Source: Streptomyces akebiae
Lineage (GTDB): Bacteria; Actinomycetota; Actinomycetes; Streptomycetales; Streptomycetaceae
Assembly: GCF_019599145.1 (NCBI RefSeq)
Contig: NZ_CP080647.1
Span: 8,494,001 to 8,558,000, forward strand
Reading direction: 5' to 3'
DNA: 64,000 nt
Of this stretch, positions 47,081 to 63,398 are shown one piece after another. Each line of letters begins with the position of its first letter. Position 1 is the stretch's first letter. Below the pieces are notes generated by a model. That model did no database searches and was not told where the DNA came from. It saw only the letters and a list, made by a program, of their open reading frames with translations. The position numbers and the translations under genes are program-made.

Positions 47081-48955
<1,875 letters not shown>

Positions 48956-49090: not shown

Positions 49091-49185
49091 GCAACGAACC
49101 TTCGCGCACCCGCGAGTAACGCAACGATCTTGCGTCGGCGCGCAAGGTTGCCGCATTACGCTCGTGAAGCTCTGGCTCATAGGGT
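49091..49185 (+). promoter_or_regulatory. Three-part operator and promoter of the permease-lrp unit
   Basis: GCAACGA at 49091-49097 and again at 49121-49127, then GCGCAA at 49140-49145, then -35 TTACGC at 49156 and -10 TAGGGT at 49180 (18-base spacer). The second site is part of ACGCAA-CGATC-TTGCGT, a perfect inverted repeat, and the third overlaps GCAA-GG-TTGC. Nearly the same elements with the same spacing occur before davA. The adjacent Lrp/AsnC regulator is the natural candidate to bind. Confidence 0.65.
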
Positions 49186-49291
49186 CAGGCGCTGTACGTG
49201 GCGTGGCGGGGACCTCCTGCTCGGTGGCCCCCTGCTGTTCGGTGCTGTCGGTCCTCACCCGCCCTGACCGGCAGCGATGAAGGAGCCACGC

Positions 49292-50758
49292 GTGCTCGAC
49301 CAAGGCGCACCCCCGCAGCGAGAGAATCGACCCGCCCTGCCGTCCGGAGGCGTCGGGGCGCGGCTGATGCGCCGCAAACCCGTGGAACGCCTGGTCGCGG
49401 AGGGTGGCCAGGGCGAGGGAGGGTCGCTGCGGCGCTCCCTCGGGCTGTGGCAGCTGACGATGATCAGCATCGGCGCCACGCTCGGCACCGGCATCTTCGT
49501 CGTCCTCGGCGAGGCCGTCCCCAAGGCCGGTCCCGCTGTCACCCTCTCCTTCGTGATCGCCGGTCTCACCGCGCTGTTCTCCGCGCTGTCGTACGCGGAG
49601 CTGGCCGGCACCATCCCGGTCTCCGGGTCCTCGTACTCGTACGCGTACGCAACGATGGGCGAGCTGGTCGCGTGGGTCTGCGGCTGGTGTCTGGTGCTGG
49701 AGTACGGGGTGTCGGTGTCGGCGGTCGCCGTCGGCTGGGGCGAGTACCTCAACGAGCTGCTGGACGGAACCCTCGGCGTGACCATTCCGGCCGCGCTGTC
49801 CGCGCCGCCCGGCGACGGGGGCGTCTTCAACCTGCCCGCGCTGATCGTCGTCCTGCTGGCGATGGCCTTCCTGCTGGGCGGCGCCCGCGAGTCGGCCCGA
49901 GCCAACACGATCATGGTCGTGGTGAAGGTCGCCGCCCTGCTGCTCTTCTGCCTCATCGGCCTCCAGGGTTTCCGGTCCGGCAACTACGAGAACTTCATGC
50001 CGCTCGGCATGGCGGGTGTCAGCGCGGCCGGGGCCACCCTCTTCTTCTCGTACATCGGGTTCGACGCGGCCTCGACCGCCGGTGAGGAGGCGAAGGACGC
50101 GCAGCGCGACCTGCCGCGCGCGATCATGCTGTCGCTGGTCATCGTCACCGCGCTGTACGTGCTGGTCGCCGCCGTCGCGATCGGGGCGCGGCCGTGGGAG
50201 CGGTTCGGCGAGTCCGAGGCCGCGCTCGCCGGGATCATGAAGGACGTCACCGGGGACGCGTTCTGGGGCACGCTGCTGGCGGCCGGGGCCGTCATCGCCA
50301 TCGCGAGTGTGGTGCTCACCGTGCTGTACGGGCAGACCCGCATCCTGTTCGCCATGTCCCGCGACGGGCTCGTGCCCAAGGTGTTCTCGCGGGTCCACCC
50401 GAGGACCGGCACGCCGCGCGTCAACACCGTGATCGTCTCGCTGTTCTGCGGTGTCCTCGCCGCCGCGATCCCGCTTGGGCAACTCGCCGACGCCACGAGC
50501 ATCGGTACCTTGTTCGCGTTCGCGCTGGTCAACGTGGCGGTCGTGGTGCTGCGGCGGACGCGGCCCGACATGCCGAGGACCTTCCGGGTGCCGCTGTCGC
50601 CGGTGCTGCCCGCCCTGGGACTGGCGTTCTGCGTCTGGATGATGGGCAGCCTCGACACCGTGACCTGGGTCGTCTTCGGGGTCTGGATGGCCGCCGGGCT
50701 CGTGTTCTACTTCAGTTACGGCTACCGCCGTTCCCGTCTCGCGACTCCAGAGAAGTGA
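49292..50758 (+). CDS. APC-family amino acid permease (CAT type)
   Basis: A 488-residue transporter with about 12 membrane segments. The first helix has the APC signature SIGATLGTGIFVVLGEAV (GTGIF). FFSYIGFDAASTAGEEAKDA is the conserved substrate/coupling region of cationic amino acid (CAT) carriers. The first 35 residues are hydrophilic. GTG 49292 is chosen because GGAG lies six bases before it; ATG 49277 in frame lacks a site. It is followed 10 bases later by an Lrp regulator. Its operator is shared with the lysine-degrading davAB genes, so lysine or another basic amino acid is the likely substrate. Confidence 0.88.
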   Translation: MLDQGAPPQRENRPALPSGGVGARLMRRKPVERLVAEGGQGEGGSLRRSLGLWQLTMISIGATLGTGIFVVLGEAVPKAGPAVTLSFVIAGLTALFSALSYAELAGTIPVSGSSYSYAYATMGELVAWVCGWCLVLEYGVSVSAVAVGWGEYLNELLDGTLGVTIPAALSAPPGDGGVFNLPALIVVLLAMAFLLGGARESARANTIMVVVKVAALLLFCLIGLQGFRSGNYENFMPLGMAGVSAAGATLFFSYIGFDAASTAGEEAKDAQRDLPRAIMLSLVIVTALYVLVAAVAIGARPWERFGESEAALAGIMKDVTGDAFWGTLLAAGAVIAIASVVLTVLYGQTRILFAMSRDGLVPKVFSRVHPRTGTPRVNTVIVSLFCGVLAAAIPLGQLADATSIGTLFAFALVNVAVVVLRRTRPDMPRTFRVPLSPVLPALGLAFCVWMMGSLDTVTWVVFGVWMAAGLVFYFSYGYRRSRLATPEK

Positions 50759-50768
50759 TCCACCCGCA

Positions 50769-51221
50769 GTGCTGAACGATCTCGACGAACGCATCGTGCA
50801 CGCCCTCGCCGAGGACGCCCGCCGCTCCTACTCCGACATCGGCCAACTCGTGGGGCTCTCCGCGCCCGCGGTCAAGCGGCGGGTGGACCGGCTGCGGGCG
50901 ACCGGGGCGATCACCGGCTTCACCGTCCGGGTGGACCCGGCCGCGCTCGGGTGGGAGACCGAGGGGTTCGTCGAGATCTACTGCCGGCGCAACACCTCGC
51001 CGGAGACGATCCAACGGGGGCTGGAGCGGTACCAGGAGGTCGTGGCCGCGTCCACCGTCACCGGCGAGGCCGATGCCCTGGTGCAGGTCTTCGCCTCGGA
51101 CATGCGGCACTTCGAGCGGGTGTTGGAGCGGATCGCCGGGGAGCCGTTCGTGGAGCGGACGAAGTCCGTGCTCGTCCTTTCTCCTTTGCTGCGGCGGTTC
51201 TCTTCCGGGTCGCCCGCCTGA
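50769..51221 (+). CDS. Lrp/AsnC family transcriptional regulator
   Basis: A 150-residue regulator. The N-terminal HTH (DERIVHALAEDARRSYSDIG then LVGLSAPAVKRRVDRLRATG) is followed by a RAM ligand-binding domain from about residue 65 (VEIYCRRNTSPETIQ, VTGEADALVQVFASD). Family members form octamers that wrap DNA and respond to amino acids. It is 10 bases downstream of the permease and most likely controls it, and perhaps davAB, through the shared GCAACGA/GCGCAA operators. GTG start. It ends in a terminator shared with the convergent GntR gene. Confidence 0.92.
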   Translation: MLNDLDERIVHALAEDARRSYSDIGQLVGLSAPAVKRRVDRLRATGAITGFTVRVDPAALGWETEGFVEIYCRRNTSPETIQRGLERYQEVVAASTVTGEADALVQVFASDMRHFERVLERIAGEPFVERTKSVLVLSPLLRRFSSGSPA

Positions 51222-51262: not shown

Positions 51263-52003
51263 TCACTCCGCGGTCTTTCTCGCCAACGCGTTGTTGCCGA
51301 TCGAGTTGTGCACGCTGAAGCTCACCGCGTCCGGGCGGTAGCGGTCGTCGGACCACTCCACCGGGCGGCCCTCGCGGGTGGTGGTGACCCGCCGGACCCG
51401 CAGGAGGGGGCTGGTGCGGCGCACGGTGAGGAGCTCGGCGTCCCGGGCGCCGGCCGCCACGGCGTCGATGACGTGCTCCCCGTAGGCGAAGACCAGACCC
51501 GTGTCGTCGAGCAGGCGCTGGGTCACCGAGGGGCAGTCCGCCTCGATGGGCTCGACGGCCGGGGAGATCCAGTCGGCGTAGACCGTGCGCTCCAGCAGGA
51601 CGGGCTGCCCGTCGAGCCCGCGCAGCCGCAGCACGTGCAGGACCCGGGCGCCCGGGGCGAGCTGGAGGCGTACGCGGTCCTCCGCGGCGGCCGTCCGGTA
51701 CTCCTGGGCGATGACCCGGCCCGTCGCCTCGCGGCCCATCGCGCGCGCCCACTGGGCGAAGCTGCGCAGCTCCGCGAAGCTCTGGCTGCGGCGGCCGGCC
51801 AGGACCACACGGCGGGCACCCTGACGTGAACCGATGAGGCCCTCCGCGGTCAGGGTCGCCACCGCCTGGCGGACGGTGCCGCGCGAGACGCCGTAGCGGG
51901 CCGCGAGTTCGGTCTCCGGCGGCAGCAGACTGCCCACCGTGTACTCCTCACGGTCGATCGCCCGCCGCAACTCCTCGGCGATCTCCTCGTGTCGCGCCGC
52001 CAT
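51263..52003 (-). CDS. GntR-family regulator with UTRA domain (HutC subfamily)
   Basis: A 246-residue regulator. The winged HTH at residues 3-70 reads IAEELRRAIDREEYTVGSLL and ELAARYGVSRGTVRQAVATL. The UTRA effector domain follows from about residue 90 (GREATGRVIAQEYRTA, LRLRGLDGQPVLLERTVYAD) and binds a small ligand. It is divergent from an ABC importer/phosphatase operon, and a symmetric operator at 52166-52181 lies between. ATG 52003 has a GGAGGGGG site. PhnR of the phosphonate system and DasR are relatives, so a phospho-compound or sugar effector is plausible. Confidence 0.93.
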   Translation of the reverse strand: MAARHEEIAEELRRAIDREEYTVGSLLPPETELAARYGVSRGTVRQAVATLTAEGLIGSRQGARRVVLAGRRSQSFAELRSFAQWARAMGREATGRVIAQEYRTAAAEDRVRLQLAPGARVLHVLRLRGLDGQPVLLERTVYADWISPAVEPIEADCPSVTQRLLDDTGLVFAYGEHVIDAVAAGARDAELLTVRRTSPLLRVRRVTTTREGRPVEWSDDRYRPDAVSFSVHNSIGNNALARKTAE

Positions 52004-52165
52004 GGTCCCCCTCCGTTCGTCCGCTGTGTGCAGCGCGACCAGCCTAACGAGGTGGGGAAGAGGTCGCCCAACACTCCCTCCGGCCGGTGTTTGTGCGGGA
52101 AAACGTGCACGAGTATTTCGCCGCTGTTTACGCGCGTGATATGAAGCGCGGACCTAATGAGGCCA

Positions 52166-52181
52166 ACTTGTTCAGACAAGT
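52166..52181. promoter_or_regulatory. Probable GntR/UTRA operator
   Basis: ACTTGT-TCAG-ACAAGT is a symmetric 16-base site, close in form to HutC-subfamily operators such as the DasR site (ACTGGTCTAGACCAGT). A -10-like TAATGA (52155-52160) ends just before it, so bound regulator would cover the transcription start of the ABC operon. Confidence 0.7.
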
Positions 52182-52222
52182 GCTCCACCCAGATCGTCCC
52201 TGCGCGTACCCCTGGAGAGCCC

Positions 52223-53374
52223 GTGAACCTCTTCCCGCCGAGAACCGCCGTCATCGGCGGCGCCCTCGCCGCCGCAGTACTCACCCTCAGCGCCTGTGGC
52301 GCGGCACCCGAGACCACGACCACCGACGACGGCGTCAACGCGGCCACCGCGACCTCGGCGGAAGACTTCGGCGGCATGGACGCGCTGGTCGCCGCCGCCA
52401 AGCGGGAGGGCAAGCTCAACGCGATCGCCCTGCCCCGCGACTGGGCCAACTACGGCGCGCTGATCGACGGCTTCGAGAAGAAGTACGGCATCGAGATCGA
52501 GGTGGAGAACCCGGACGGCGCCAGCCAGGACGAGATCAACGCCGTCACCTCGCGCAAGGGCCAGGACCGCGCGCCCGACGTGCTCGACCTCGGCAGCTCC
52601 TTCGCCATCAGCGCCGCCCAGCAGGGGCTGCTCGCGCCGTACAAGGTGGCCGCCTTCGCCGACATCCCCGAGGGCCAGAAGGACCCGAAGGGCCAGTGGT
52701 ACAACGACTACGGCGGCTACATATCCATCGGGTGCGACGCGAAGCGGGTCAAGGAGTGCCCGGAGACCTTCGCCGACCTGCTGCGGCCGAAGTACAAGGG
52801 GCAGGTCGCGCTCAACGGCAACCCCACCAAGTCCGGTTCGGCCTTCGGCGGCGTCTGGGCGGCCTCCCTGGCGAGCGGCGGTTCGTTCGACGACATCCAG
52901 CCCGGCCTCGACTTCTTCGCCGAGCTGAAGAAGAACGGCAACTACACGCCCGTCGAGTCGACACCGGCGACCGTCGAGAAGGGCGAGACGCCCATCAGCA
53001 TCGACTGGGACTACCTGAACGCCGGGTACGCCGACGAGTTCAAGTCCAAGGGCGTCGACTGGAAGGTCGTCGTCCCGGAGGACGGCAAGTTCTCGCAGTA
53101 CTACTCCCAGGCCATCAACAAGGACGCCCCGCACCCGGCCACCGCCCGGCTCTGGCAGGAGTACCTCTACAGCGCCGAGGGCCAGAACCTGTGGCTCGCC
53201 GGCTACGCCCGCCCGGCCCTGATGCCCGCCATGGAGAAGGCCGGCACGCTGGACGAGAAGGCCGCGGCCAAGCTGCCGAAGGTGTCGGGCACCCCCGAGT
53301 TCCCGACCGAGGAGCAGCAGACCAAGGCCAAGGACGCGCTCGCGCAGGGCTGGGCCAAGGCGGTCTCCGGGTGA
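52223..53374 (+). CDS. ABC transporter substrate-binding lipoprotein
   Basis: A 383-residue lipoprotein: signal peptide with lipobox LSAC and modified Cys25, then a Thr-rich linker and a periplasmic-binding fold of the extracellular solute-binding family (iron/putrescine/2-aminoethylphosphonate-type). A stretch such as IEIEVENPDGASQDEINAV and APDVLDLGSSFAISAAQQG are typical of that group. GTG 52223 is chosen because GGAG lies before it and the signal peptide starts there. It is the first gene of the operon; permease 1 overlaps its stop by four bases. The ligand is not proven; a phosphorylated compound is suggested by the downstream phosphatase. Confidence 0.9.
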   Translation: MNLFPPRTAVIGGALAAAVLTLSACGAAPETTTTDDGVNAATATSAEDFGGMDALVAAAKREGKLNAIALPRDWANYGALIDGFEKKYGIEIEVENPDGASQDEINAVTSRKGQDRAPDVLDLGSSFAISAAQQGLLAPYKVAAFADIPEGQKDPKGQWYNDYGGYISIGCDAKRVKECPETFADLLRPKYKGQVALNGNPTKSGSAFGGVWAASLASGGSFDDIQPGLDFFAELKKNGNYTPVESTPATVEKGETPISIDWDYLNAGYADEFKSKGVDWKVVVPEDGKFSQYYSQAINKDAPHPATARLWQEYLYSAEGQNLWLAGYARPALMPAMEKAGTLDEKAAAKLPKVSGTPEFPTEEQQTKAKDALAQGWAKAVSG

Positions 53375-54273
53375 CCGCCGTCGTCACCGAGGCCGACCCG
53401 GCACTCGTGGCCGCCGCTTCCGTGAAGCGGCGGCCCCGCCGCGGCGGATGGCTCGCCGTGGTTCCGCTGCTGGCCTTCGTCGCGCTGGCCTTCGGACTGC
53501 CCGCCGTCGCCATGCTGAACGGCGCGTTCACCGTCAAGGACCCGGCCACGGGCGCCACGTCCTACACCACCGCGAACATGACGGCCTCCGTGCAGGGGGC
53601 CTACCTCACGGCCATGCTCGGCAGTGTGAAGCTGTCCGCCGTCGCGGCCGGGCTCGCGGCCGTCCTGGGGCTGCCGCTCGCCCAGGCCGTGGTGACCTCC
53701 CGCTTCCCCGCGCTGCGCGAGGCCGTGCTCACCGCCTCCGGGGTGCTCGCCAACTTCGGCGGAGTCCCGCTCGCCTTCGCGTTCGTCGCCACCCTCGGCA
53801 ACTCCGGTGTGCTGACCAGGCAGTTGGGCCTGACGGACAAGGGCTGGGACCTGTACAGCTTCTGGGGACTGGTCATCGTCTACCTGTACTTCCTGATCCC
53901 GCTGATGGTTCTCACCATCACCCCCGCCCTCGACGGACTGCGCGTCCAGTGGCGGGAGGCCGCCCAGAACAACGGCGCCACCGGCCTCCAGTACTGGCTC
54001 CACGTGGCCCTGCCCGTCCTCGCGCCTTCGCTGCTCGGCGGGCTCGTGCTGCTCTTCGGCAGCGCCTTCGCCGCGTACGCCACCGCCGCGGCCATGGTCG
54101 GCAGCTCGATCCCACTGGTCACCCTGCAGATCGCCGACGCCATCTCCGGCAACGTCCTCGTCGGCCAGGAGAACGTGGCGCTCGCCCTCAGCCTCGACAT
54201 GGTCCTGATCGCCGGGCTTGTCATGGCCGTCTACCTGCCCCTGCAACGACGGAGTGCGCGATGGCTGGCCTGA
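53371..54273 (+). CDS. ABC transporter permease (first)
   Basis: A 300-residue inner-membrane permease with about six helices and the BPD_transp_1 fold. The ATPase-docking EAA loop reads EAAQNNGATGLQYWLHVALP. The first 30 residues are hydrophilic and basic. The GTG overlaps the lipoprotein stop by four bases; its own end overlaps permease 2 by 13 bases, so all are coupled. Confidence 0.93.
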   Translation: MTAVVTEADPALVAAASVKRRPRRGGWLAVVPLLAFVALAFGLPAVAMLNGAFTVKDPATGATSYTTANMTASVQGAYLTAMLGSVKLSAVAAGLAAVLGLPLAQAVVTSRFPALREAVLTASGVLANFGGVPLAFAFVATLGNSGVLTRQLGLTDKGWDLYSFWGLVIVYLYFLIPLMVLTITPALDGLRVQWREAAQNNGATGLQYWLHVALPVLAPSLLGGLVLLFGSAFAAYATAAAMVGSSIPLVTLQIADAISGNVLVGQENVALALSLDMVLIAGLVMAVYLPLQRRSARWLA

Positions 54274-55109
54274 CCCCGGGACGCCCGGCGACGCGCCGCC
54301 CCGCTCTGTGGCGCCCGCTCGTCCTCGCCTGCGCCGGGCTGTACTTCCTCGTCCCGCTCGCCGCCTCCGTGATCTTCACGGTCGATGTGCCCGGCGAGGG
54401 CGTCACCTTCGACGCCTACAGCCAGATCCTCGGCACCGACGGCTTCGTGACCAGCCTGCTGCTCTCCCTGGAGCTGGCCGCCGCGACCATCGCCGTCGTG
54501 CTGCTGCTGATGGTGCCCGCCATGGTCGCGCTGCGGCTCGGCGCCCCCAGGCTGCGGCCCGTCGTGGAGGTGGTGTGCGCACTGCCGCTGGTGGTGCCGC
54601 CGATCGCGTTCGTCGCCGGCCTCGGCACCGTGCTCAAGTGGGGGCCCGAACACCTCTCCCGCACCCCGCTGTTCCAGACCTTCGTCGCGGTCCAGAACCC
54701 CGACTTCCCCATCGTCCTGGTCCTCGCCTACGTCGTGATGGCGCTGCCCTTCGTGCACCGGGCGCTGGACGCGGGGCTGCGCGCCATGGACGTACGCACC
54801 CTCGTGGAGGCCGCCCGCAGCTGCGGGGCGAACTGGCCGCAGGCGCTGGTGCGGGCCGTGCTGCCCAACCTGCGCGGGGCACTGCTCAACTCCGCCTTCC
54901 TCACCCTGGCGCTCGTCCTCGGCGAGTTCACCGTCGCCCAACTGCTGGGCTTCCGGCCGTTCGCCGTGTGGATCGTCAACGTCAGCGGCTCGCAGGCCCA
55001 GCTGTCCGTGGCCGTCTCGGTGCTCAGCCTGCTCGTCACCTGGGCCATGCTCCTCGCGCTCGCCTCCTTCGGCGGACGTACCCGAACCGCTTCCGCCTCC
55101 GGGGGATGA
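54261..55109 (+). CDS. ABC transporter permease (second)
   Basis: A 282-residue partner permease with about six helices. The EAA loop is EAARSCGANWPQALVRAVLP. The ATG overlaps permease 1 by 13 bases, and the ATPase gene starts three bases after its stop. Having two different permeases plus one ATPase is typical of polyamine, iron and aminoethylphosphonate importers. Confidence 0.93.
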   Translation: MAGLTPGRPATRRPALWRPLVLACAGLYFLVPLAASVIFTVDVPGEGVTFDAYSQILGTDGFVTSLLLSLELAAATIAVVLLLMVPAMVALRLGAPRLRPVVEVVCALPLVVPPIAFVAGLGTVLKWGPEHLSRTPLFQTFVAVQNPDFPIVLVLAYVVMALPFVHRALDAGLRAMDVRTLVEAARSCGANWPQALVRAVLPNLRGALLNSAFLTLALVLGEFTVAQLLGFRPFAVWIVNVSGSQAQLSVAVSVLSLLVTWAMLLALASFGGRTRTASASGG

Positions 55110-59110: not shown

Positions 59111-59114
59111 CTAG
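59111..59114. repeat. Target site duplication, left (CTAG)
   Basis: CTAG at 59111-59114 matches CTAG at 60681-60684 on the other side of the IS element. YTAR-type four-base duplications are typical of IS701 elements. Confidence 0.7.
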
Positions 59115-59231
59115 TACTCCAGCAGTACTTCGTGGCTTGACCTGGGGAAACGTCGAGCGGTGGGAGTGTAGCGGGCGGGAAGTCGTCACGGACGGCTTCT
59201 GCCCGCACGCCCCTCGAAGGAGTGCCCCCGA
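59115..59231 (+). repeat. Left terminal inverted repeat of the IS element
   Basis: 117 bases, identical to the reverse complement of 60564-60680. The two copies diverge immediately after CCCCCGA. Confidence 0.9.
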
Positions 59232-59267
59232 TGGCAAGGTCGCCCCGGGCCTGGGAAGCCTCCGGTC

Positions 59268-60609
59268 GTGATCACAGAACAGGCAGCCGAGACCTGGGAC
59301 CGCGACCTGGACCACCTCTTCACCACCATCGGGCGCCACTTCGGCCGTGTCGAACCACGCCGCCGCATGCGGGACTACGTGCGCGCACTGCTCGCCCCGG
59401 TGGCCCGAAAAACAGCTGGCAACTTGCCGAACACGCTGGCCACGCCACCCCGGACGGCCTGCAGCACCTGCTCTCCCGAGCCCGCTGGAACCCCGACGAC
59501 ATCCGCGACGACCTGCAGACCTACGTCGCCGAACACCTTGGCCGCCCCGACGGGGTACTGATCATCGACGACACCGGGTTCCTGAAGAAGGGCACTACAT
59601 CCGCCGGAGTCCAACGGCAGTACTCCGGCACCGCCGGCCGTACCGAGAACTGCCAGATCGGCGTCTTCGCCGCCTACACCAGCACAGTCGGCCGCGCCCT
59701 GGTGGACCGGGAGCTCTACCTGCCCAAGTCCTGGACGGACGACCGTGACCGATGCCGCGCCGCCAAGATCCCCGACGAGCGGGAGTTCGCCACCAAGAAC
59801 ACCCTCGCGGCAACGATCGTCCGCAGAGCTCTGGCCTCGCCACTGCCGGTCGCCTGGGTCACGGCGGACGCCGCCTACGGACAGGACAACCGCTTCCGCC
59901 GGATGCTGGAAACATCCGGCGTCGGCTACGTCCTGGCCGTCCCCAAGTCCCAGTTCTCCCTGGCCGGCCCACGCATCGACAAGGCCTTCGAGCAGGCCCC
60001 CGACCAGGCATGGGAACGCCGTTCCTGCGGCGCGGGCGCAAAGGGACAGCGCGAATACGACTGGGCAGCCGTCAAGTTGCGCCCAGTGGTCGAGTACGAC
60101 CACCAGGGCGGCGTGTTGATCCGTCGACGGTGGGCGCTGGCACGGCGCAGCTTGAGTCGGCCGGACGAGATCGCCTACTACCTCGGCTACGCACCGCTGG
60201 ATGTCGGTGTGGACGAACTGGTGCGCGTCGCTGGCGCCCGGTGGGCGATCGAAGAGTGTTTCCAGGCAGCGAAGAACGAGTGCGGCCTGGACGAGTACGA
60301 AGTCCGCCGCTACGTGGGCTGGTACCGGCACATCACCCTGGCCATGCTCGCCCACACCTTCCTCGTTGCGATGAGCGCGCGAGCAGCCGAAAAAGGGGAT
60401 CCACCGGTGAGGATGCCGCGGTCATCGAGCTCACCGTGGCAGAAGTGCGGCGACTCCTGGCAGCTCACACACCCCGAGACCTTCACACCCTCACTCACGT
60501 GTTGAGCTGGTCGCACTGGCGCCGACGACGCCAAGCGGTGGCCCGCCGCTGCCACTACCGACGTCGGGGGCACTCCTTCGAGGGGCGTGCGGGCAGAAGC
60601 CGTCCGTGA
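59268..60609 (+). pseudogene. IS701-family DDE transposase, two apparent -1 frameshifts
   Basis: Three consecutive frames together give one IS701 transposase of about 448 residues. Frame 1 (from 59268) holds the N-terminus ETWDRDLDHLFTTIGRHFGR. Frame 2 (from about 59411) holds the catalytic DDE core: IIDDTGFLKKG, WVTADAAYG and WAIEECFQAAKNECGLDEYE. Frame 3 (from about 60394) holds the C-terminus VIELTVAEVRRLLAAHTPRD. Both joins are -1 shifts at CCG followed by five A (59408-59412 and 60390-60394); one extra A at each would restore a single frame. This is a decayed gene, programmed slippage, or homopolymer undercalls. The catalytic motifs are intact. Confidence 0.8.
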
Positions 60610-60680
60610 CGACTTCCCGCCCGCTACACTCCCACCGCTCGACGTTTCCCCAGGTCAAGCCACGAAGTACTGCTGGAGTA
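60564..60680 (-). repeat. Right terminal inverted repeat of the IS element
   Basis: 117 bases, perfect inverted copy of 59115-59231. It includes the stop codon of the transposase at 60607-60609. Confidence 0.9.
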
Positions 60681-60684
60681 CTAG
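60681..60684. repeat. Target site duplication, right (CTAG)
   Basis: CTAG immediately outside the right terminal repeat, matching the left copy. Confidence 0.7.
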
Positions 60685-60706: not shown

Positions 60707-60803
60707 GCAACGAATCGTCGTGCGGTCCGTCCCGCACGCAACGAATCCCCCATCGGTGCGCAATGGCCGCCGCTTGTCCGGTTCGGCGCGGCGGCCGTAC
60801 CGT
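60707..60803 (+). promoter_or_regulatory. Three-part operator and promoter of davAB
   Basis: GCAACGA at 60707-60713 and 60738-60744, GCGCAA at 60758-60763, -35 TTGTCC at 60774-60779 and -10 TACCGT at 60798-60803 (18-base spacer). The order and spacing match the permease promoter at 49091-49185: 31 versus 30, 20 versus 19, then 16 and 24 in both. The IS element ends 22 bases upstream, leaving the operator whole. Confidence 0.65.
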
Positions 60804-60847: not shown

Positions 60848-61636
60848 ATGCGTACCGCCCTGCTCCAGAGCTCCGGCCGGCCCGGCTCGGTCGTCGGGAA
60901 CCTGAAGGTGCTGGACGAGGCCGTGGGGCGGGCCGCCGAGGCGGGGGCCGGGCTGGTGGTGGCACCGGAGATGTTCCTGACGGGGTACGCGATCGGGGAC
61001 GACATCGCGCGGCTCGCCGAGGCGGCCGACGGCGACTCGGCCGACGCGGTCGCCGAGATCGCGGGGCGGCACGGGGTCGCGATCGTCTACGGATACCCGG
61101 AGCGCGCCGGTGAGGCGGTCCACAACTCGGCGCAGTTCGTCTCCGCCGACGGCGTCCGGCTGGCGAACTACCGCAAGACCCACCTCTTCGGCTGCTTCGA
61201 GCGCGACCACTTCACGCCGGGAGAGCGGAGCGTCGTCCAGGTCGAACTGGGCGGGCTCCGCGTCGGGATCCTGATCTGCTACGACGTGGAGTTCCCGGAG
61301 AACGTCCGCGCCCACGCCCTCGCCGGCACGGATCTGCTGGTGGTGCCGACGGCCCAGATGCATCCGTTCCAGTTCGTCGCCGAGTCGATGATCCCGGTGC
61401 GGGCCTTCGAGAGCCAGATGTACGTCGCGTACGTCAACCGGGTCGGCCGCGAAGGGGAGTTCGACTTCGTCGGGCTCTCCACACTGGCCGGGCCGGACGG
61501 GATCGCGCGCACCCGCGCCGGACGCGGGGAGGACTTCGTCCTCGCCGAGGTCGACCCCGCCTTCCTCGCGGCCTCCCGCGAGGCGAACCCGTATCTCCAG
61601 GACCGCCGCCCCGGGCTCTACGGCTCCCTCGTCTGA
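60848..61636 (+). CDS. davA: 5-aminovaleramide hydrolase (nitrilase superfamily), DavA
   Basis: A 262-residue carbon-nitrogen hydrolase. The catalytic Glu-Lys-Cys triad is E41 (APEMFLTGY), K110 (NYRKTHLFG) and C144 (LICYDVEFPE). It resembles Pseudomonas DavA, which hydrolyses 5-aminovaleramide to 5-aminovalerate, and the adjacent davB makes that amide from lysine. The pairing makes the assignment much firmer than the hydrolase alone would. ATG 60848 follows a GTGAGGAAC site. The unit is controlled by the three-part operator upstream. Genes for the later steps (davT, davD) are not in the window. Confidence 0.85.
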   Translation: MRTALLQSSGRPGSVVGNLKVLDEAVGRAAEAGAGLVVAPEMFLTGYAIGDDIARLAEAADGDSADAVAEIAGRHGVAIVYGYPERAGEAVHNSAQFVSADGVRLANYRKTHLFGCFERDHFTPGERSVVQVELGGLRVGILICYDVEFPENVRAHALAGTDLLVVPTAQMHPFQFVAESMIPVRAFESQMYVAYVNRVGREGEFDFVGLSTLAGPDGIARTRAGRGEDFVLAEVDPAFLAASREANPYLQDRRPGLYGSLV

Positions 61637-61685: not shown

Positions 61686-63398
61686 ATGACGTCCACCGTG
61701 CCCAACGCCGTCGAGCACGCAGACGAGCAGCAGCCGCCGATCACCATGTTCGGCCCGGACTTCCCGTACGCGTACGACGACTTCCTGGCCCACCCGGCCG
61801 GTCTGGGCCAGATACCGGCCACCGAGCACGGCTGTGAGGTCGCGGTCATCGGTGGTGGACTGTCCGGCATCGTGGCGGCGTACGAGCTGATGAAGATGGG
61901 GCTCAAGCCGGTTGTCTACGAGGCCGACCGGATCGGCGGGCGCCTGCGGACGGTCGGGTTCGACGGGTGCGATCCCTCGCTCACCGCCGAGATGGGGGCG
62001 ATGCGCTTCCCGCCGTCCTCCACGGCTCTGCAGCACTACATCGACCTGGCGGGTCTGGAGACCCGTCCGTTCCCCAACCCCCTCGCGGAGGCCACGCCGT
62101 CGACCGTCGTCGACCTCAAGGGCGAGTCCCACTACGCCGAGACCATCGACGACCTGCCGCAGGTCTACCGGGACGTGGCCGCCGCCTGGAAGGCCTGCCT
62201 CGAAGAGGGCGCCGACTTCTCCGACATGAACCGGGCGCTGCGTGAGCGGGACCTGCCGCGCATCCGGGAGATCTGGGCGAAGCTCGTCGAACGGCTCGAC
62301 AACCAGACCTTCTACGGCTTCCTCTGCGACTCCGAGGCCTTCAAGTCCTTCCGGCACCGCGAGATCTTCGGCCAGGTCGGCTTCGGCACCGGCGGCTGGG
62401 ACACCGACTTCCCCAACTCCATCCTGGAGATCCTGCGCGTCGTCTACACCGAGGCCGACGACCACCACCGCGGCATCGTCGGCGGCAGCCAGCAACTCCC
62501 GCTGCGGCTCTGGGAGCGTGAGCCCGAGAAGATCGTGCACTGGCCGTACGGCACCTCGCTGAGGTCCCTGCACGCCGCGGGGGAGCCGCGGCCCGCCGTG
62601 ACCCGGCTCCAGCGGACCGCCGGCAACCGGATCACCGTGACGGACGCGAACGGTGACATCCGTACGTACCGGGCGGCGATCTTCACCGCCCAGTCCTGGA
62701 TGCTGCTGTCGAAGATCGCCTGCGACGACTCGCTCTTCCCGATCGACCACTGGACGGCCATCGAGCGGACGCACTACATGGAGTCCAGCAAGCTCTTCGT
62801 GCCCGTCGACCGGCCGTTCTGGCTCGACAAGGCCGTCGACGACCAGGGGAATCCGACGGGCCGTGACGTCATGTCGATGACGCTCACCGACCGTATGACG
62901 CGCGGCACCTACCTCCTCGACGACGGCCCGGACAGGCCCGCCGTCATCTGCCTCTCCTACACCTGGTGCGACGACAGCCTGAAGTGGCTGCCGCTGTCGG
63001 CGAACGAGCGGATGGAGGTCATGCTGAAGTCGCTCGGCGAGATCTACCCGAACGTCGACATCCGCAGCCATGTCATCGGCAACCCGGTGACCGTCTCCTG
63101 GGAGAACGAGCCCTACTTCATGGGCGCGTTCAAGGCGAACCTGCCCGGCCACTACCGCTACCAGCGGCGCCTGTTCACCCACTTCATGCAGGACCGGCTG
63201 CCCGACGACAAGCGGGGCATCTTCCTCGCAGGCGACGACATCTCCTGGACGGCAGGCTGGGCGGAGGGCGCGATCCAGACCGCGCTCAACGCGGTCTGGG
63301 GGGTCATGCACCACTTCGGCGGCACCACGGACGCGACCAACCCCGGTCCGGGAGACGTCTACGACACGATCGCCCCCGTCGAACTCCCGGAGGACTGA
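61686..63398 (+). CDS. davB: L-lysine 2-monooxygenase (FAD), DavB
   Basis: A 570-residue flavin amine oxidase-fold monooxygenase that turns lysine into 5-aminovaleramide. The FAD dinucleotide motif (VAVIGGGLSGIVAAYELM) lies at about residues 53-72, followed by VVYEADRIGGRLR. The N-terminal FGPDFPYAYDDFLAHPAGLG and the FGQVGFGTGGWDTDFPNS stretch closely resemble the Pseudomonas putida enzyme. The C-terminus has IFLAGDDISWTAGWAEGAIQ, the flavin-closing motif. ATG follows an AAGGAG site 49 bases after davA. Phenylalanine or tryptophan monooxygenase are less likely relatives. Confidence 0.85.
   Translation: MTSTVPNAVEHADEQQPPITMFGPDFPYAYDDFLAHPAGLGQIPATEHGCEVAVIGGGLSGIVAAYELMKMGLKPVVYEADRIGGRLRTVGFDGCDPSLTAEMGAMRFPPSSTALQHYIDLAGLETRPFPNPLAEATPSTVVDLKGESHYAETIDDLPQVYRDVAAAWKACLEEGADFSDMNRALRERDLPRIREIWAKLVERLDNQTFYGFLCDSEAFKSFRHREIFGQVGFGTGGWDTDFPNSILEILRVVYTEADDHHRGIVGGSQQLPLRLWEREPEKIVHWPYGTSLRSLHAAGEPRPAVTRLQRTAGNRITVTDANGDIRTYRAAIFTAQSWMLLSKIACDDSLFPIDHWTAIERTHYMESSKLFVPVDRPFWLDKAVDDQGNPTGRDVMSMTLTDRMTRGTYLLDDGPDRPAVICLSYTWCDDSLKWLPLSANERMEVMLKSLGEIYPNVDIRSHVIGNPVTVSWENEPYFMGAFKANLPGHYRYQRRLFTHFMQDRLPDDKRGIFLAGDDISWTAGWAEGAIQTALNAVWGVMHHFGGTTDATNPGPGDVYDTIAPVELPED

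Follow-up and report, generated by a model that had tools for sequence, protein, structure and literature searches.

In Pseudomonas, lysine is broken down by DavB and DavA, through the same two steps that are predicted for the davB and davA products of Streptomyces. Excerpts of PMC12478604 describe AstR of Acinetobacter as an AsnC-family activator of ornithine catabolism that works through a region 100–135 bases upstream of the start codon. In Mycobacterium tuberculosis, according to excerpts of PMC4569260, the roc cluster was induced by arginine and the adjacent regulator gene was itself 6-fold up; this regulator, Rv2324, is assigned to the AsnC family in an excerpt of PMC4866775. A search of the open-licence literature, covering titles and the opening lines of abstracts among the matches listed, returned no report of Lrp control of davBA, and neither the operator array nor the possible effector switch described below was found in print in the same search.

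The DNA analysed here, hereafter the window, is a stretch of 64,000 nucleotides from Streptomyces akebiae (NCBI RefSeq assembly GCF_019599145.1, contig NZ_CP080647.1, positions 8,494,001 to 8,558,000). An earlier note on this DNA had proposed a local lysine regulon in which a permease and the davA gene share an operator bound by an Lrp/AsnC-family regulator.

Genes of the window

The relevant genes lie in the order guaB1, permease, lrp, GntR/UTRA gene, phosphonate-type ABC transporter, MFS gene, IS701 copy and davA-davB:

47147–48955, guaB1
49277–50758, plus strand, APC-family amino acid permease
50769–51221, plus strand, Lrp/AsnC-family regulator (GTG start)
51263–52003, GntR/UTRA gene, PhnF-like, adjoining a phosphonate-type transporter
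60848–61636, plus strand, davA-like carbon-nitrogen hydrolase, predicted 5-aminovaleramidase
61686–63398, plus strand, davB-like L-lysine oxidase/monooxygenase

The permease scored 613.6 bits against the general model TIGR00909 (cut-off 556.8), the sole one of 25 models listed for which it exceeded the model's own cut-off; against the cationic subfamily TIGR00906 it reached 316.7 bits (cut-off 681.7) and thus fell outside that subfamily. Its nearest solved relatives were 5oqt and CAT1. Lysine may be its substrate, which would fit the presence in family f3 (L387, L389) of a 61–62% identical permease directly before davB without an Lrp. As the earlier note had it, the regulator gene is downstream of the permease; it starts 10 bases after the permease end, and the two genes are probably in one transcript. 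Its product contains both an AsnC-type helix-turn-helix (PF13404, 57.9 bits) and an AsnC/RAM effector domain (PF01037, 53.4 bits), each above cut-off. The region between lrp and davA includes, at 51263–55109, the GntR gene and the phosphonate-type ABC transporter; in some relatives lrp and davA are almost adjacent.

The davA product was recognized as a carbon-nitrogen hydrolase (PF00795, 170 bits) and matched no NCBIfam equivalog above cut-off; its predicted role as 5-aminovaleramidase is drawn from the adjoining davB. DavB aligned over nearly its full length (residues 11–567 of 570, 777.7 bits) with the solved L-amino acid oxidase/monooxygenase 3we0, the substrate of which we take to be lysine.

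A phased array at two promoters

Upstream of the permease and of davA the following elements were located:

49091–49147, plus strand, permease-lrp operator array, GCAA-type half-sites at 49091, 49121 and 49142 (spacing 30/21)
49129–49146, strandless, perfect inverted repeat CTTGCG-N6-CGCAAG in the sequence, taking in the third half-site
49156–49185, plus strand, putative permease promoter, -35 TTACGC 49156–49161 and -10 TAGGGT 49180–49185
60707–60765, plus strand, davA operator array, half-sites at 60707, 60738 and 60760 (spacing 31/22)
60774–60803, plus strand, davA promoter, -35 TTGTCC 60774–60779 and -10 TACCGT 60798–60803

The earlier note had described five elements kept in register at two loci about 11 kb apart, and every coordinate proved exact. 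At the permease these are GCAACGA at 49091 and again at 49121 (+30), GCGCAA at 49140 (+19), the weak -35 TTACGC at 49156 (+16) and TAGGGT at 49180 (+40); at davA they are GCAACGA at 60707 and 60738 (+31), GCGCAA at 60758 (+20), TTGTCC at 60774 (+16) and TACCGT at 60798 (+40). The distance from the last GCAA to the -10 element is 38 bases at both promoters alike. Half-site spacings of 21–22 and 30–31 bases correspond to about two and three helical turns, which would put the half-sites on the same side of the helix. The right arm of the inverted repeat and the 49140 element overlap.

On its own GCAACGA was ruled out as a signal, being present 10 times in the window against 8.0 expected, and so was a looser in-register GCAA triple in the source genome (5 occurrences, 6 in the reversed control). 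The strict pair of GCAACGA heptamers separated by 22–25 bases has just two occurrences in the genome of 10.5 Mb, at the permease and davA promoters, and none in the reversed control, which bears out the earlier view that chance is an unlikely explanation. A matrix trained on davA arrays found two sites above zero in the window, 60706 (54.0), which belonged to the training set, and 49090 (29.7), which did not; the next site scored -5.5.

An IS701-family element at 59111–60684 stops 22 bases upstream of the davA array, which is undisturbed by it. The terminal inverted repeats of the element are perfect over 121 bases, and its transposase scores 411 bits against NF033540. This element is absent at davA of the closest relative fetched (G108, 92% DavA identity); 37 plasmid records contain related copies, and 36 of these records are from Streptomyces.

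Conservation of the array in Streptomyces

In a sample of 150 Streptomyces genomes, the source genome among them, DavA (E up to 1e-70) was found in 139 and a match to the Lrp (E up to 1e-35) in 147, the best match being at paralogue level only (~1e-45) in G028, G120 and G121. From 100 of these genomes 100 loci were fetched, 93 of them chosen for a dav-clade Lrp near davA; davA was found in 94 (window included) and the permease in 69. Whether the elements are conserved in front of permease and davA orthologues had been set beforehand as the point on which the proposal could fail, and they were conserved: anchoring on both heptamers aligned 91 of 94 davA promoters and 60 of 69 permease promoters. 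The davA promoter consensus reads CGCAACGAATCgCCG-N16-CGCAACGAA...gCGCAACgg...CTTGTC...CGTACCgTC, in which the first half-site is a 15-base near-palindrome. A perfect 15-base palindrome resembling this half-site, GCAACGGATCGTTGC, is located outside any array elsewhere in the source genome, at 1446908 (G000:C1; L312:2909-2923). Among the best 80 of at least 585 named records, which are partly the same strains so that the two samples overlap, the pattern was present at 73 of 80 davA and 35 of 40 permease promoters. The strict triple pattern was found in 133 of the 150 genomes, with 14 matches overall in the reversed control (counted from the table).

The register relative to the promoter was close to fixed. 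Counted from the last GCAA, TTG was at +14 in 93 and TAnnnT at +38 in 90 of the 94 davA arrays; permease arrays had TAnnnT at +38 in 61 of 64 and a -35 without TTG. Recent copying of the promoter region is disfavoured, as only the half-sites and the register are shared and each site has its own sequence conserved throughout the genus.

Scanning other Streptomyces with a matrix had been put forward as a check. With a matrix built from 91 davA arrays, 149 sites above 10 were found on the two strands of the 100 loci (696,574 bases): 92 before davA, which are the training set, 55 before the permease, which lie outside it, one before davB and one initially unclassified, which with the help of locus L307 was placed before davB of G059. 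All therefore precede davA, the permease or davB. With the davA promoter left out, the permease array was the top-scoring site of its locus in 62 of 65 cases. Where davA and the Lrp were in the same fetched stretch, the davA site scored above zero in 158 of 161, training rows counted, and the array preceded davB in five Streptomyces genomes that had no davA match. Of 1498 random 400-base stretches, two scored above zero; the maximum, 54.2, equals that of the array before davB in G059, and the set was not taken as a clean null.

Twenty-six davA loci had no Lrp in the fetched stretch. Seventeen of these came from named Streptomyces, had short flanks or reached a contig end, and were not scored as unlinked; the array was present in 16 of them, the exception being S. 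chattanoogensis (L290), with no array in 596 bases upstream of davA. A davA locus of Nocardiopsis (L302) had no clear array, and one of Haloechinothrix (L304), for which the sequence retrieved included no Lrp, scored 15.8. G012 and G023 have the Lrp on the same contig as davA, at a long distance from it; G012 retains the GCAACGA pair before davA and paired GCAAC before the permease. At 32 loci where lrp had no permease match (one of them incomplete), no GCAACGA was found upstream of lrp, so autoregulation would not be general and would occur only where the permease precedes lrp.

The array and the Lrp clade in other families

A related Lrp (E up to 1e-40) was detected in 88 of 296 genomes of a class-wide sample. 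The set from other families comprised 30 loci in 8 families, with Lrps 51–70% identical. In 28 of the 30 the Lrp was near ddaH (dimethylargininase; five of the proteins were checked against family models), and rocD (ornithine aminotransferase) was present in 27. A matrix trained only on Streptomyces davA, applied to both strands, found the best site of the whole locus before ddaH, at a distance of up to 400 bases, for 25 of the 28; these successes span 7 families and the misses were L334, L338 and L344. Column-permuted matrices ranked ddaH best in a mean of 0.9 and a maximum of 6 of 28 loci (200 trials). With shifted spacings ddaH remained the top hit at between 10 and 24 of the 28 loci, as it did at 20 when only the first half-site was used; the median margin was 40 bits at the true spacing and at most 21.6 at shifted spacings. 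The half-sites thus carry most of the ranking and the spacing shows in the margin. Of the 24 ddaH arrays scoring at least 5, 14 had TAnnnT at +37 or +38 and 10 had TTG at +14. In family f13 (L321, L322, L332) a gene for a VanW/peptidoglycan-binding protein directly precedes the Lrp gene, and ddaH lies 0.3 to 1 kb past it.

The converse was seen at davB. None of nine davB loci without a clade Lrp nearby had an array, the best site per locus scoring between -8.4 and -22.8; they comprise seven genomes without a clade Lrp match, G390, and a second davB copy in Streptomyces G434. In G390 the Lrp-ddaH locus carries the array and davBA lacks one. The second davB copy of G434 (L390, G434:C10:142457-144094) is 60–62% identical, and the sequence fetched around it contains neither an array nor a clade Lrp. 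The analysis took in every one of the 17 davB-bearing genomes outside Streptomyces, one of which (L341) had no davA in reach. In family f17, where the Lrp is beside davB (on a different contig in L382), the best site was before davA in seven of eight davA loci; five of the eight scored above zero, and of the three below zero one was not top-ranked. At the level of sequence, the array follows the Lrp clade and not the enzymes. The tie between this Lrp and the array, as supposed in the earlier note, is thereby strengthened from both sides, the array tracking the clade across families even beside ddaH-rocD and being missing where davB has no clade Lrp nearby.

Phylogeny of the regulator and residue 106

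The root of the regulator tree was set by an outgroup of ten further Lrps encoded in the source genome (L398, too short, and L405, L407, L408 and L409 were left out); the outgroup branches are long and the deeper forks are without resolution. Array-linked Lrps, those linked to ddaH included, formed one clade (support 95/93). The Streptomyces lysine-linked Lrps formed a group (100/95) sister to a ddaH-linked group (95/93), and the two davB-linked Lrps of family f17 in the tree formed a separate clade (100/100). The window Lrp has the array upstream and lies near davA-davB, not in linkage with ddaH-rocD. It is more likely, from this pattern, that the array was inherited with the regulator than that it was copied once from permease to davA.

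The recognition helix LSAPAVKRRVDRL was found in 22 of 22 Streptomyces lysine-linked and 23 of 28 ddaH-linked Lrps, in neither of the two from f17, in one of three Streptomyces ddaH-linked paralogues and in none of ten other Lrps of the genome. The looser form LS..AVKRR was present in 27 of 28 ddaH-linked Lrps, both f17 proteins and all three Streptomyces paralogues, and again in none of the other ten. The genome has 17 AsnC-domain matches, one being a 56% identical paralogue of the same clade, and cross-binding is therefore possible. This paralogue (8802181–8802600) stands in line with ddaH and rocD (L314:964-3604; G000:C1:8799963-8802603).

Position 106 differed between the lysine- and ddaH-linked proteins, the counts coming from related rows and not from independent events. 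The Streptomyces dav clade had Gln106 without exception, in 167 rows representing 143 distinct sequences (the rows include 5 repeat loci, some strains twice and some genes away from davA), and so did all eight davB-linked Lrps of family f17. His106 was present in 29 of 30 ddaH-linked Lrps (Arg in L344) and in all three Streptomyces ddaH-linked paralogues, 32 of 33 overall. Position 84 behaved similarly across these related rows, with Gly in 136 of 143 Streptomyces lysine-clade sequences, 8 of 8 from f17 and 0 of 33 ddaH-linked proteins. The tree suggests that the Gln/His106 change happened twice, in two lineages. In a predicted structure of the Lrp (mean pLDDT 80.3, pTM 0.55), residue 106 is on the strand formed by residues 103–109 of the effector domain. 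We offer tentatively, at somewhat less than even confidence, the reading that the clade kept its recognition helix and three-site operator and swapped its effector pocket, two lineages having become tied to davBA and Gln106 instead of ddaH-rocD and His106; residue 106 would then be a marker, and perhaps a determinant, of the amino acid sensed.

Discussion

We consider it probable, judging from sequence comparisons, that the locus is a local Lrp regulon, in which the window Lrp binds the three-site operator at both promoters and most likely activates them with a basic amino acid, most likely lysine, using an operator retained from the ddaH-rocD clade. Binding, activation, lysine as effector and the permease substrate are here inferred. 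The Lrp (50769–51221) would sit as an oligomer on the three phased half-sites just upstream of the -35, bridging them and contacting RNA polymerase from there. Its targets would be the permease-lrp promoter, for uptake and autoregulation, and the davA-davB promoter, for conversion of lysine to 5-aminovalerate, so that with plentiful lysine it would activate uptake, its own gene and breakdown. The Streptomyces copy would have kept the DNA-binding helix and the operator, and its target genes and, probably, its effector would have changed.

In the opposite sense of regulation the Lrp would keep both promoters shut until lysine or a product released it. Several Lrp/AsnC proteins do repress neighbouring genes (examples cited in an excerpt of PMC11033246), but we regard repression as unlikely here. 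The array is wholly upstream of the -35 and in near-fixed register, nearly always 38 bases before the -10 and not over the promoter, for which reason activation is the likelier mode. The related mycobacterial roc cluster, by analogy, is induced by arginine along with its adjacent regulator gene (excerpt of PMC4569260), and AstR acts as an activator from its upstream region (excerpt of PMC12478604).

Less probable still is that the array is read mainly by the ddaH-rocD-linked paralogue (8802181–8802600), or by both Lrps, lysine and arginine breakdown being co-regulated. The paralogue is of the same clade with the near-identical recognition helix LSATAVKRRVDRL, the davA-array matrix finds ddaH arrays in other families, and the dav-clade Lrp does not adjoin davA in G012 and G023. 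Against this, the array at the promoter of the paralogue itself has diverged, its half-sites being mostly of CGCAG type, most of the Streptomyces sampled have the dav-clade Lrp close to davA (the 93 loci were fetched on that criterion), and the five davA-less genomes retain a dav-clade Lrp as well as the array beside davB. It is highly improbable that a different regulator uses the elements, for instance the GntR/UTRA protein encoded between lrp and davA in the window, or that they are an Lrp-independent promoter feature: the array is retained where the lrp-davA gap of about 200–300 bases has no room for a GntR gene (e.g. L121, L128), for which the GntR protein was rejected as its reader, it occurs beside the Lrp in other families and is missing at the nine davB loci without a clade Lrp nearby, and the protein itself resembles PhnF (under that model's cut-off) and adjoins a phosphonate-type transporter.

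The local Lrp regulon proposed here would provide lysine breakdown in Streptomyces with a regulator, its operator and its signal. It would also represent a natural experiment in the change of a regulator's pathway, with operator and helix kept and the target genes and one effector-domain residue altered, and the Gln/His106 prediction could yield lysine or arginine biosensors.

Comparison with known systems

Solved Lrp/AsnC proteins (2w25/2qz8, AsnC 2cg4 and Lrp 2gqq) belong to the same sequence family as the window Lrp (E-values 3.6e-17 to 7.6e-10) but are distant from it, and the recognition helix differs in the four aligned rows. A point of difference from Pseudomonas DavB/DavA would be the Lrp of the ddaH-rocD clade as regulator in Streptomyces. 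The mycobacterial roc cluster resembles the other-family loci found here in its order of ddaH-rocD-Lrp type, with the regulator Rv2324 beside a permease, Rv2323c and rocD; it concerns arginine and ornithine whereas the present locus concerns lysine, the likeness of Rv2324 to the clade is one of gene order, and no operator appears in the excerpted text of PMC4569260. AstR is proteobacterial and controls other enzymes, but, as far as the excerpt of PMC12478604 describes it, it is an AsnC-family local activator of an adjoining operon for catabolism of a basic amino acid, the role proposed here for the window Lrp.
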